Assembly (NCBI GenBank): GCA_016288795.1
Contig: JAEELI010000002.1
Span: 1-64,000, forward strand
Source: Caryophanales bacterium
Lineage (GTDB): Bacteria > Bacillota_I > Bacilli_A > RF39 > UBA660
Length of the DNA: 64,000 nucleotides
Reading direction: 5' to 3'
Part shown: positions 12,035 through 58,605 of the stretch, piece after piece
Layout of the letters: the number at the start of each line of letters is the position of its first letter
Numbering within the stretch: position 1 is the stretch's first letter
Translations under genes and position numbers: made by a program
The notes under the pieces: model-generated
Told to the model about the DNA's origin: nothing
The model's database searches: none
Seen by the model: only the letters and a program-made list of their open reading frames with translations

Positions 12035-12853
12035 TTATTTTTGACATTTTTCACAATAATAAGTACTTCTTCCTCCAATTTTTATTCTTTTAATAATCTC
12101 ACCACAATTATAACATTTTTCTCCTTCTCTTTTATGAACTTTTAAATATTTTTGATAATTACCTATAACTCCTAAACTAGAAGTATAACTCTTAATTGTA
12201 GTTCCCCCTTCTTCTATTGCTTTTTCTAATATTATTTTAGCACCATTTATTATTCTTTCACACTCTTTTTTATTAATAGAACTTGTTTTTCTTAAGGGAT
12301 TAATCTTGGATAAATATAAGACTTCATCTACATAAATATTTCCTAGGCCACTAATAATTTCTTGATCTAATAAACAAGTTTTAATTGGGTTCTTTTTGTT
12401 TTTAAACTTATCTAATAAATAACTTGGTGTTAACTCTTTAGAAAACGGTTCATATCCTTGTTTTTTTATTTCTGGAGTCTCATATAAATCCTTTTTTTCT
12501 ATTATCTTCATTCTTCCAAATTTTCTAGTATCATGATATCTTAAATCGGTATTGTCATCAAATGAAATAATTATATGTTCATGTTTAGATATTTCATCTA
12601 AACTATTCTTAATAAAATACTTGCCTTCCATACGAAGATGACTCAACAAATAATGTTCTTTTAATTCAAATATTAACCATTTACCCACTCTCAATATATC
12701 TATAAACTCATTATTTATTAATATCTTTTTAAAATATTCTTCTTCGTTATCTAGCATCTTGTTATATAAAACTTTAACCCCCACGATTTTTTTGTGCAAT
12801 ATTCTATTGTTTAAAGTTCTTCTAACTGTTTCTACTTCAGCAAGTTCTGGCAT
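12035..12853 (-). CDS. mutM: Formamidopyrimidine-DNA glycosylase
   Basis: Removes 8-oxoguanine and Fapy lesions and cuts the strand by beta,delta-elimination. The start is the ATG at 12853 giving MPELAEVE, because the second residue, proline, is the catalytic nucleophile of this family; AGGTGATAAT precedes it. The frame also extends 10 codons further upstream, but that extension would bury the proline. 272 residues, with the C-terminal zinc finger (CYNCG and CEKC). Followed by cca. Confidence 0.96.
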   Translation of the reverse strand: MPELAEVETVRRTLNNRILHKKIVGVKVLYNKMLDNEEEYFKKILINNEFIDILRVGKWLIFELKEHYLLSHLRMEGKYFIKNSLDEISKHEHIIISFDDNTDLRYHDTRKFGRMKIIEKKDLYETPEIKKQGYEPFSKELTPSYLLDKFKNKKNPIKTCLLDQEIISGLGNIYVDEVLYLSKINPLRKTSSINKKECERIINGAKIILEKAIEEGGTTIKSYTSSLGVIGNYQKYLKVHKREGEKCYNCGEIIKRIKIGGRSTYYCEKCQK

Positions 12854-52429: not shown

Positions 52430-55400
52430 ATGAAGAAGAGAAATAAAGGAAAAGAAAAAAAGCTTAATTCTACTCTACTAATTACTATTTTAGTTTTATT
52501 TTGTTGTGTCCTATTATCTTTAGGTTTTTCTTCATTTCAGGCAAATTTAGATATAAGTGGTATTGGTGCTTATTTCCGTATTCAAAAAGATATTAGAATT
52601 ACTAATATAAGCGCTTCTAGTTTTGCTTCATCAGCTTATACCAACTGGGAAGAATTCAATGTTAGTAATATTAATGCTAGTATTGTTTTACCTAATCAAA
52701 ACTCTACTGTTACTTATGACATTCCTGTTATAAATGTTGGTAATGTAGAAATGGGAATATTAGATATAACTGGATTACCAAATAATTTAACATATTCTAT
52801 TTCAAATTATAATTTAAAAGATACTTTATGTGATGACACAAATACTAATCAATGTAAATTAGGATCAACTACTACTCTTCAAGTTACAATTGGTTATGCT
52901 CCTAATGGATATAATAGTAGTAATATTACTTATAATGTAAATATGGATTTTGATTTTAGACAAGTATATTCACTAAATTATGTAGGTTTTTCAAACACTT
53001 CTAGTTTGCCTTCTACTATTTTAGATGGTGAAACTAAAAATATTACATTTACTAATTCTACTGGTATTCCTGCCGATACTACAGTAACTAATGCTTCAGC
53101 GACTTATTCAAGTCCTACTCTAACGTTATCTAATGCTTCTGATAATGTTGTGGTTACAAGGAAGTTCTCTGTAACATATGTTGATTTTACTGGTGATACT
53201 TCAGGACTTATTTCAAGAATAGGACCTGAAGGTGGAACTATCGCATTCAATAGCACTACTGGTATTCCTGAATTTGTTTTAGTTAGTGGTGCTATAGGAA
53301 ATTATAACTCAACCAATAATATATTAACTATATCTGATGTTACATCTAATGTTGTAGTTACTATGGCAACTGATGGAAATGTAGAGATTGTATCTATATC
53401 AAGGACTGATATATCTAATGTTACTGAAAATAATGCCCCAGTAATAACTAGCGATGGCCAAGGAATAACGTTTGATTTAGGTGTTACGGTTAACCAAAGC
53501 AACTATAATCAAGATTTCTTTATTAAATATGCTATTGATATCAATAATGATTCAGTATCAGAGCAAAAACTATTAGCGACTAATTTTACTCCAAGAATTG
53601 TTGGATCAGGTAATGTTCCTAACGTAACCTACACAATAACTGATGCTAATGGTAATCAAGTATTAAATTCTACGATACCACCTAAGACTACCGAAACATA
53701 TTACTTAACTATTAACATTTATCCACAAGAACAAGGATCTTGGGGCGTTGAAGGAGAAACTTCTGTTGATACTGTAAAAAATGGTATCGTATCTGGTTCT
53801 ATAGATGGAAGTAATCAAGGAAACTTAACCGGTTCTAATACTACTGCTCATTTTGTAGCTTCTGTAGTTAATTCATTCGACGAAACTAAAAGTTTCACAC
53901 TTTCAATAGATGATAATAGATTTAGTATTGTAGACTCAAATGGAAATGCTATTTCGGCAATGAGCATTACTGCAAATACAACTGATACATACGATTTCTA
54001 TATTAAAAACAATAATGGCAACAACTTTATGTCATCGCCATGTGATTTAAACGTTAATATTAATTATGATAGTAATGTTTCAAGTATTGGTGTTTTAAGC
54101 TTAAGTGTTGATGTTGATCCATCTCTTACTGATAGCACTCCACCAGTTATTAATAATGTTACTGCTACTATTACAAGCACTCAAAAAGAAATACGAGTTT
54201 CTTGGAGTGGCTACGATGATAATCCTATAGATAAATACTATTTACAAATATATTCTTCTGATGGAAATAATAATGATACATTTATTGATGAAGTAACTAT
54301 AAATGGTGCTGCAAATAATACAGTTGTTAATTATACAGTTACGGTTCCAACCGATGATACCTACTATTTCTTTAAAGTTTATGGCGAAGATAGAGCCCAA
54401 GCTCATAATAAAGCTTCAGCTTCCGACATTTCAGGATGTTCACCAAGTTCAGGATATTGTTCAAAAACTACTACTGAAAAATATAAATGGAACTTTGAAG
54501 TTACTTTAGTTCTAACTAACGCTACATCAACAAATGGAACTACTACTACAAATAATAATGTAAGAACCGTAAAATTTAATGTTCCATATGATGGTAATAT
54601 CAATACTACCTTAAATGGTGCTGGAAATGATTATAACTCTCCATCATCTATAAGTTCTGCGACTATTACCTATGCAAATGGAACTACTTCTAACCTTCGA
54701 AGTGGTTCTTCTTCCCAAACAGCTTATAACTATAATACTAACTCACACGTTTTAAATGTTTACCATGTAATTGGAGATATAACAATTGAAGCATCCGGTG
54801 TTCAAACTCAAACCTGTTTAGCCGAAGGAACAAAAATACTACTGGCTAATGGTTCATCTAAAAACATTGAGGATATAGGATATGATGATTTGCTGGCGGT
54901 ATGGAACTATGATACTGGAGAATTAACTTATGAATATCCATTATGGATTGAAAGCGAGCATATTTCCGATCAAGTTACAAGGGTTACATTCTCTGATCAT
55001 TCTTATATAGACTTTGTTGGAAACCATGCTATTTATAATTCAGACATAGATCTATTTGTTAATATTCTTGATAATGAAAACTTTAAAATAGGAACTCATG
55101 TAGCAAAAATTAAAAACAATAAATTAGTTAATGTTTCTGTAACCAATATTGAAACTATTTATAAAAAGGTAAAATACTATTTTGTTGGTTCAACAACATA
55201 CTATAATATTTTCGCAAATAATATTTTAACAACTGATAGAACCCTTATGATATCTAACTTATATGGATTTGATAAAAATGCCAAGTGGCCAAAAGAAAAA
55301 CATCAAATTCTCGCAAATAAAAACAATTTATTAGATTACTCGTATTTTGAAGATGTTCTCCCATATTATTTATATAAAGGATTCAGAGTTCAAGAAGCAG

Positions 55401-55777
55401 GTTATTTAATTAATAATAAATTAGTAGATTTAGATACATTTAAGAAGTATATATATGGATTTATTATTAATCCTTCAATGATTACACCACCAATAACTAA
55501 GAATAATGACCGCTATTGGATGGTTACAACTAGTGAAGATATAATAACTGAAAATAATAAAGAAAAATATTTGAAAAAAGAAGGAAGCAAATATAAAGTT
55601 CCTAAGATTAATAAAAAGAACTTTAAAGGTTGGTTAAATACTGCTGACAACTTGATTTATAAGCCTGGTGATAAAATAGTTGTTAGTCACGGAATTCATT
55701 TAAAAGCAGTATATGATACAAAATTACATTTTGAAAAGAATTTACAAAAGAAAACAAATTATAAAATATTAAAATAA
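52430..55777 (+). CDS. Large surface protein with C-terminal Hint (Hedgehog/intein) domain
   Basis: 1115 residues. A membrane segment (about 14-36) ends LSLGFSSFQANLDISG, similar to SipW-type anchors. Residues 40-560 are Asn/Thr/Ser-rich beta repeats; a fibronectin type III-like unit lies at about 569-665; another beta unit to 790. Residues 796-936 fit a Hint domain: C796 in CLAEGTKILLANGSSKNIEDI, a block-B-like GNHAIYN with H866, and YYNIFANNILTTD at the end in place of the usual HN. A basic tail follows, with an InlB/Flg_new-type unit (about 1062-1096, FKGW...YKPGDKI...LKAVYD). N-terminal Cys and His suggest N-S shift chemistry without C-terminal cleavage. Confidence 0.85.
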   Translation: MKKRNKGKEKKLNSTLLITILVLFCCVLLSLGFSSFQANLDISGIGAYFRIQKDIRITNISASSFASSAYTNWEEFNVSNINASIVLPNQNSTVTYDIPVINVGNVEMGILDITGLPNNLTYSISNYNLKDTLCDDTNTNQCKLGSTTTLQVTIGYAPNGYNSSNITYNVNMDFDFRQVYSLNYVGFSNTSSLPSTILDGETKNITFTNSTGIPADTTVTNASATYSSPTLTLSNASDNVVVTRKFSVTYVDFTGDTSGLISRIGPEGGTIAFNSTTGIPEFVLVSGAIGNYNSTNNILTISDVTSNVVVTMATDGNVEIVSISRTDISNVTENNAPVITSDGQGITFDLGVTVNQSNYNQDFFIKYAIDINNDSVSEQKLLATNFTPRIVGSGNVPNVTYTITDANGNQVLNSTIPPKTTETYYLTINIYPQEQGSWGVEGETSVDTVKNGIVSGSIDGSNQGNLTGSNTTAHFVASVVNSFDETKSFTLSIDDNRFSIVDSNGNAISAMSITANTTDTYDFYIKNNNGNNFMSSPCDLNVNINYDSNVSSIGVLSLSVDVDPSLTDSTPPVINNVTATITSTQKEIRVSWSGYDDNPIDKYYLQIYSSDGNNNDTFIDEVTINGAANNTVVNYTVTVPTDDTYYFFKVYGEDRAQAHNKASASDISGCSPSSGYCSKTTTEKYKWNFEVTLVLTNATSTNGTTTTNNNVRTVKFNVPYDGNINTTLNGAGNDYNSPSSISSATITYANGTTSNLRSGSSSQTAYNYNTNSHVLNVYHVIGDITIEASGVQTQTCLAEGTKILLANGSSKNIEDIGYDDLLAVWNYDTGELTYEYPLWIESEHISDQVTRVTFSDHSYIDFVGNHAIYNSDIDLFVNILDNENFKIGTHVAKIKNNKLVNVSVTNIETIYKKVKYYFVGSTTYYNIFANNILTTDRTLMISNLYGFDKNAKWPKEKHQILANKNNLLDYSYFEDVLPYYLYKGFRVQEAGYLINNKLVDLDTFKKYIYGFIINPSMITPPITKNNDRYWMVTTSEDIITENNKEKYLKKEGSKYKVPKINKKNFKGWLNTADNLIYKPGDKIVVSHGIHLKAVYDTKLHFEKNLQKKTNYKILK
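54815..55237 (+). other. Hint domain of the surface protein (residues 796-936)
   Basis: Encodes Cys796 to Asp936. It begins with Cys and has the conserved hydrophobic spacing TKILLANG-N-IEDI seen in intein/Hog block A, GNHAI as block B, and an NIFANNIL end typical of block G without the final His-Asn. Activity is inferred from the fold family, not shown. Confidence 0.75.
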
Positions 55778-55801
55778 CCTAGATACTAGGTTATTTTTTT
55801 A
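55771..55801 (+). terminator. Terminator of the Hint protein gene
   Basis: Hairpin AAATAACCTAG-ATA-CTAGGTTATTT followed by TTTT. Confidence 0.9.
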
Positions 55802-57591: not shown

Positions 57592-58605
57592 CTAAACTGA
57601 GGCATAAGAACATTCGCTGTTTTCACCTATTGCGCAAAGACTATGGCTAGAATAAGATCCACAAGATACAGTTCCATATATGTCAGCATTTACACTACAC
57701 CAGACTGAACTAAAACTTCCACACGTTATAGCATCTTCGTCATACATAGTGCACGTAAGGCCTAAAGCTTCCATTTCTGTTTTTGCCACATTTATTTTAT
57801 TTAAATAAGATGGGTCTAAACAATACTCTGTTCCACTAAATATACCACACACTTCATCATAAGAACTGCCAGAATATCCCATTATATAATAATCTAAACC
57901 ATTATTAGTTGTTAAAGGATCAGAAATTTTAGGGTAAGATTTATTTGCGTCATATACATAGTAGACAGGAGTTGCAACGCTGCAGCTAAAACTAGTTGCA
58001 GTTATTGTTATTGTTATATCTTTATTTTGTAATACATCTTGATTTAAAGAATACTTATTTACCATTCTAACGGATGCCTCTATATATTTTGGTTTGCTAC
58101 TTGATACTCCATTTAACGTTCCATTTATTGTTATGGGAAATAAATTAGTAGTTCTAAAATCATAATCAGTTCCATTTATATTTAATAATATTTGACCATA
58201 TGATTTACTACCCCATCCTTGGAATGCTGTATACAAATTATTGGTTCCAGTAGCTGCTACATTTAATGTATATGAACAATTAAATGTTCCTGCCCCACTT
58301 ACTGTTGTATGTGCAAGTTGAACACTTGTTACATCAGTAGTAGGAACTCCACTAGTTGTTCCATAATAAGTAACATCTCCTGTTTTTTTCATCATATCTG
58401 AGCCTCGTAAATTTAGTGATAATGAATTATTATCACCAACTAGAGATACACTTCCTAAGGCGGGTGTAGTTGCACTAATAGTTTTTGAACCAAAGCTATT
58501 TGTTGAAGAAACTTGGAAATAAGCATATGAAGCACCCAGAACTAAAATTAGAAGTACAACAAACACTATTGTCGAATATATTACTAGTTTTTTTCTATTA
58601 TCCAT
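57592..58605 (-). CDS. Surface protein with SipW/TasA-type signal anchor, paralogue 2
   Basis: 337 residues. The hydrophobic signal segment ends LGASYAYFQ. Residues 30-225 are about 60 per cent identical by eye with paralogue 1 (15721-16743), with shared blocks FGSKTISA, GDVTYYGTT, YTAFQGW and DITITITATSF. The C-terminal 110 residues are unrelated in detail and carry many cysteines. A strong SigA promoter lies upstream and a 14-bp palindrome abuts the ribosome-binding site. Likely an extracellular fibre-like protein. Confidence 0.75.
   Translation of the reverse strand: MDNRKKLVIYSTIVFVVLLILVLGASYAYFQVSSTNSFGSKTISATTPALGSVSLVGDNNSLSLNLRGSDMMKKTGDVTYYGTTSGVPTTDVTSVQLAHTTVSGAGTFNCSYTLNVAATGTNNLYTAFQGWGSKSYGQILLNINGTDYDFRTTNLFPITINGTLNGVSSSKPKYIEASVRMVNKYSLNQDVLQNKDITITITATSFSCSVATPVYYVYDANKSYPKISDPLTTNNGLDYYIMGYSGSSYDEVCGIFSGTEYCLDPSYLNKINVAKTEMEALGLTCTMYDEDAITCGSFSSVWCSVNADIYGTVSCGSYSSHSLCAIGENSECSYASV

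Follow-up and report, generated by a model that had tools for sequence, protein, structure and literature searches.

Self-cutting Hint domains that attach proteins are established for Hedgehog, and the literature searched describes such attachment at a single ciliate locus. The open reading frame (ORF) at 52430–55777 (+) of the DNA analysed here raises the question of whether a bacterial stalk protein carries a domain of this kind and, if so, to what its stalk would be joined. The DNA originates from a Caryophanales bacterium, an uncultured gut bacterium with a genome of about 1 Mb (assembly GCA_016288795.1, contig JAEELI010000002.1, positions 1 to 64,000 of the forward strand), and this whole stretch of 64,000 nucleotides is referred to below as the window. 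An earlier note on the sequence had described a surface protein of 1115 amino acids with a Hint domain at residues 796–936, which might cut itself after residue 795 and attach its stalk to a wall or lipid nucleophile. The coordinates and the length of the ORF were confirmed.

Composition of the ORF and Distribution of Its Relatives

Homologues were found across both the stalk and the Hint domain, and the 1115-aa protein consists, in order, of a probable SipW-type signal, a stalk, a Hint domain, a helical extension and a beta unit, all encoded on the + strand. Residues 1–37 (52430–52540) comprise a hydrophobic stretch (residues 14–33) followed by LGFSSFQANLDISG, a motif that recurs in relatives and in those TasA-like subunits whose genes adjoin the gene of a SipW-type peptidase. 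Since the hydrophobic stretch precedes a motif like that of SipW-type subunits, the N-terminus, judging by hydropathy and sequence comparison, is probably a cleavable SipW-type signal rather than the permanent anchor proposed earlier. Near the Hint gene, 57592–58605 (− strand) encode a protein of 337 aa whose N-terminus is SipW-like (LILVLGASYAYFQ); no family above the cut-off was found for it in Pfam or NCBIfam, and it is likely another secreted surface protein.

The signal is followed by an extra N-terminal region (approximately residues 38–300, 52541–53329), which in sequence comparison was missing from most relatives and was matched by L094 and by ORFs in loci L017 and L023. The latter ORFs are located at L023:10753–12300 and in L017 from position 12252; the one in L023 ends without a Hint domain, and the L017 and L023 genomes contain one Hint copy each, located elsewhere. 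The window Hint gene may be a fusion. The core stalk (residues 310–795, 53357–54814) is conserved across the family, with 52% identity over 498 aa to L019 and 24–34% identity in most other relatives. Of the stalk of about 750 residues described in the earlier note, approximately residues 310–790 were retained as conserved stalk, whereas approximately residues 1–300 correspond to the extra N-terminal region. Cys796 is the only cysteine after residue 677, and no LPXTG motif (sortase substrate) was found in the window protein. At the other end, approximately residues 1020–1095 (55487–55714) form a beta unit, present in the full-length bacterial group after the helical extension and absent from phages; its earlier description as an InlB-type unit reflects no more than a resemblance in sequence to that repeat, and no Pfam match was obtained. 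The protein ends in a basic tail (residues 1096–1115, 55715–55774), which was modelled with low confidence. A 12-pair palindromic hairpin (55771–55797) lies between the Hint gene and the convergent next gene and is possibly a terminator shared by the two, and promoter-like sites around the Hint gene were no more numerous than expected by chance.

Within the same family, 11 of 193 genomes (one of them that of the window) contained relatives of the ORF, and at the phylum level, 19 of 392 genomes did. Further relatives came from the GTDB contig set (80 loci) and from 13 IMG/VR contigs. The record titles name MAGs of Bacilli, Tenericutes, Erysipelotrichaceae, Clostridia, Saccharibacteria and Bacteroidales (the last two being the labels of the titles), and they give gut and rumen as the source of many relatives. 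No tblastn match was found among the INPHARED phages with the window module and a phage relative as queries. Scans of the window protein against Pfam, NCBIfam and PHROGs gave nothing above the cut-off; below it, Hom_end_hint (E-value = 0.006) and intein_Nterm (E-value = 0.26) in the Pfam/NCBIfam scans both started exactly at residue 796. Weak matches of the protein to Birnavirus VP1, AXH and peroxidase were taken as chance.

Fold and Diagnostic Residues of the Hint Domain

The residues by which the Hint domain (54815–55237) had been recognized were found in place, namely, Cys at 796 (codon 54815–54817), GNHAI at 864–868 and NIFANNILTTD at 926–936. An AF2 model built with the alignment of 84 relatives (pLDDT 92.3, pTM 0.87) was compared with known structures, as the earlier note had proposed for Hog, BIL and intein structures; it had the Hint horseshoe fold, with Hint proteins as the top matches. 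In the Foldseek comparison with the PDB, the best folds included BIL2 of BUBL1 (6y75, E-value = 4e-10), CthBIL, the BIL of C. thermocellum (2lwy, TM = 0.87), Hedgehog (1at0, TM = 0.71, E-value = 6e-7) and mini-inteins, and BIL2 of BUBL1 was also the best PDB match by sequence profile (E-value = 1e-11). A profile made from the 12 phage relatives only had the window ORF as its sole match among 148 open frames (E-value = 1e-36, residues 794–1009). Judging by the model and the profiles, residues 796–936 are a Hint domain, and the likeness is not due to chance.

Residue counts were made in the same alignment of 84 relatives, in which three columns were exceptionless: Cys796, Glu814 and His866, the last being the block-B histidine (55025–55027). 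Cys1 was present in all 127 matches beginning at model position 1, and the 26 more divergent relatives had Cys in 25 cases (with one gap) and His in 24. The place of intein blocks F/G is taken by YNIFANNILTTD (55202–55237), without His-Asn, and the block-G His-Asn was found in none of the 84 aligned relatives; identification of the domain as an intein was rejected on this ground. The block-B Thr, located four residues before the His in 45 of the 84 relatives, is replaced by Phe862 in the window protein (F-V-G-N-H), and the TxxH motif of Hedgehog block B is not present in this protein. The counterpart of Hedgehog D46 is Glu841 by ungapped numbering and the neighbouring residue by hhalign, an ambiguity of one residue; near this position, Glu was found in 60 of the 84 relatives (the bacterial group) and Lys in 11 of the 12 phages.

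The C-Terminal Extension and Other Proteins Carrying the Unit

The Hint domain is followed by a helical extension of about 70 residues (approximately 937–1010, 55238–55459), and the two are kept together in bacteria and phages. The Hint domain is therefore part of a larger unit, Hint plus helical extension, located at or near the protein C-terminus: nearly all ORFs had at most 44 residues after the unit match, the exceptions being two loci with 85 to 90. Searches with the helical extension gave only sub-threshold epoxide hydrolase matches (E-value = 0.3–0.5), which were disregarded.

The same unit was found at the end of pilin-like proteins with an N-methylation motif (L025, E-value = 1e-8, and L015, E-value = 8e-8; L021 and L027 belong here by sequence) and fused to phage proteins, one with a laminin-G-like domain and another with tail-fibre-like stretches. 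In phage contig L101 (3552–6037), the Hint gene lies between the genes for the tail sheath stabiliser and the small terminase. Hint proteins of 350 aa resembling that of L101 are present in several IMG/VR contigs. The top match in the viral structure set was a protein of the giant virus Gaeavirus (210 columns, 30% identity), and since the match has this length and identity, the Gaeavirus protein probably includes the helical extension too. The Hint unit caps proteins of fibre type, pilin-like proteins, structural proteins of phages and, probably, one protein of a giant virus.

Gene Neighbourhood

Neighbouring genes were counted at 70 loci with at least 2.6 kb of upstream sequence, 62 from the full-length group and 8 from the short group. 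At 49 of the 70 loci, all of them in the full-length group (0 of 8 in the short group), the upstream sequence encoded, on the same strand, a signal peptidase of SipW type whose N-terminal part is polytopic (TIGR02228, E-value = 1.5e-22). The peptidase gene was preceded by a gene for a small secreted protein at 46 of the 70 loci, where the genes for subunit, peptidase and Hint protein invariably followed one another in this order, and a DUF5305 membrane protein was a third partner at 16 loci. When the model of the small protein was compared with the PDB, the three best matches were AbpA (archaeal bundling pili), the fibre of TasA and the cannula fibre of Pyrodictium, with E-values of 1.5e-4 to 5e-4 and a low TM of about 0.35; on these moderate values, the protein is a candidate TasA/AbpA-like fibre subunit.

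The window Hint gene is not in such an operon and stands by itself on contig C5; thus, the link of the window protein to a fibre operon comes from its relatives. In the genome of the window, genes for a TasA/AbpA-like subunit, a SipW-type peptidase and a DUF5305-type protein stand in a row without a Hint gene at L145:4986–8108 (contig C17). Three further SipW-type peptidase loci of this genome (L146, L147 and L148) were found on contigs C1, C3 and C18, those on C1 and C18 amid other small secreted-looking proteins, and SipW-type systems are numerous for a genome of 1 Mb. The genome also encodes three sortases. In the literature searched, which lay mostly outside subscription journals, Hint domains were not found described for systems of SipW/TasA type or pilin type.

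Comparison with Known Systems

The Hog domain of Hedgehog (PF01079, 1at0) resembles the Hint unit in its fold, Cys1, block-B His, C-terminal position, helical extension after Hint and lack of His-Asn, and the Hedgehog order of N-terminal part, Hint, recognition-type extension and C-terminus appears to match that of the unit, a likeness of arrangement only. However, the identity is 11%, the window protein is without the block-B Thr and has no clearly placed D46, and the N-terminal parts of the proteins with the Hint unit are of bacterial or phage fibre type. The window protein was not matched by PF01079 at E ≤ 1, and the best family member found was L015 (28.1 bits vs a cut-off of 29.7). The SRR of Hedgehog is a helix-loop-helix without a PDB homologue (PMC7906309).

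The best profile and fold match in the PDB, BIL2 of Tetrahymena BUBL1 (6y75, 6tmm), shares Cys1 and the block-B His but ends with an Asn of intein type (N143 according to the PDB title), is flanked by ubiquitin-like domains instead of closing the protein and was solved as a domain without a helical extension. Ciliate BIL2 forms lysine isopeptide bonds (PMC8616854). Bacterial intein-like domains of type B, set beside the unit by description, also have the Hint fold without block G and are reported to cleave without splicing (PMC4031507), whereas neither the extension nor a fixed C-terminal placement was found described for type B in the literature searched. Proteins of Myxococcus, Photorhabdus and Serratia (BMC Genomics 2008 9:127), likewise compared by description, are secreted bacterial proteins with a Hint-like domain at the C-terminus, but they belong to other taxa, and no counterpart was seen here of the upstream region, marked by two conserved Cys, that they share (PMC2362128).

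In its gene layout, the locus of the relatives resembles tapA-sipW-tasA of Bacillus subtilis, where a fibre subunit, a SipW-type peptidase and an accessory surface protein are encoded together and a role in anchoring and nucleating the TasA fibres is ascribed to TapA (PMC9674648). The accessory protein here, likened to TapA by this layout, is nevertheless a long stalk with a Hint domain, the peptidase has the extra polytopic N-terminal part, and the window gene lies apart from the operon.

Proposed Mechanism and Alternative Explanations

The Hedgehog-like position, the invariant Cys and His and the absence of the Asn machinery make thioester cleavage before Cys796 the best reading. The self-cleavage and attachment proposed earlier are thus in line with the C-terminal placement, the conserved extension, the loss of block G and the lack of LPXTG, but a wall or lipid nucleophile is not required. 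The window protein would be a SipW-exported, fibre-associated stalk with a Hedgehog-like autoprocessing module, in which a thioester would form and the stalk would then pass to an external nucleophile; we hold this reading tentatively, at somewhat under even confidence. Cleavage, ligation and the nature of the nucleophile we infer from the fold, the residues and the context. Outside the membrane, Cys796, aided by His866, would attack the bond after residue 795 to form the thioester, which, with Cys1 and the block-B His but without block G, would need resolving by something outside; as Asn cyclisation is not available, it would persist until an external nucleophile reached it. This nucleophile, most likely a protein amine, would be chosen or placed with the help of the helical extension, whose position is like that of the sterol-recognition region of Hedgehog. 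The stalk would thereby become linked through its C-terminus to a partner, either a fibre subunit or some surface protein, with release of the C-terminal 320 residues. If both ends of the stalk are cut, the stalk needs attachment, which argues for ligation and is not proof of it. Because phage proteins carry the Hint unit too, a protein amine or water is a more economical acceptor than a wall or lipid nucleophile. In its general form, the proposal would be that a Hedgehog-like ligase at the C-terminus (Hint plus helical recognition region) is common to bacteria and phages. It would need neither ATP nor sortase to couple the ends of extracellular fibre proteins, whether stalks of TasA type, type IV pilin-like proteins or structural proteins of phages, to an amine of a partner; this is possible, if on the doubtful side.

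With water as the acceptor, the thioester would merely be hydrolysed, and the Hint domain would be a removable cap or an export chaperone that frees the stalk without ligation. Such an outcome, which we consider unlikely without being far-fetched, requires only the conserved Cys796 and His866, suits bacteria and phages alike and has a parallel in the description of type B BILs as cleaving without splicing (PMC4031507), but by itself it leaves unexplained why phages and bacteria alike have kept a specific helical extension together with the Hint domain.

The attachment of the stalk to a cell-wall or lipid nucleophile, a sortase-independent anchoring device in the earlier note, appears improbable. 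The precedent of Hedgehog with its C-terminal recognition region (PMC7906309), the surface location, the lack of LPXTG in the window protein and the Glu near the D46 position of the bacterial group, where phages have Lys, are consistent with it, and for this group such a nucleophile is possible; however, the D46 equivalence itself is ambiguous by one residue. Moreover, phage structural proteins with the Hint unit own no wall or membrane, which makes a nucleophile of this kind less general, BIL2 forms its isopeptide bonds with lysine, and with sortases encoded in the genome, sortase-independent anchoring would be at most an additional route.

A Hint domain that has lost its reactivity and now has a structural role as an end-cap, or a role in binding, would be compatible with the missing block-B Thr of the window protein, but we consider this quite improbable, as Cys1 and the block-B His, without exception in the 84 relatives and nearly invariant in the 26 divergent ones, are hard to explain without a reaction. 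A polymorphic toxin, in which a long stalk and a pretoxin Hint precede a C-terminal toxin freed by self-cleavage, is suggested by the order of parts and by a weak PT-HINT match in a phage relative (E-value = 0.058), but it was rejected as very improbable, since the region after Hint is conserved rather than variable, the window protein has no toxin family match in Pfam or NCBIfam and no recurrent downstream gene was found as an immunity candidate.

Significance

In the literature searched, mostly outside subscription journals, no report of Hint-mediated attachment in the building of bacterial surface fibres or phage particles was found, which is weak evidence of absence. In the family of Hint unit proteins, the residues needed for the chemistry are present, the domain is suitably positioned and its extension is conserved; among relatives of the window protein, the family travels with a TasA-type subunit and a SipW-type peptidase. 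If active, the unit would represent a new covalent route of fibre assembly in gut Bacilli with small genomes. It would also be a natural reagent for conjugating proteins at their C-termini and would give studies on the origin of the Hedgehog recognition region a counterpart in bacteria and viruses.
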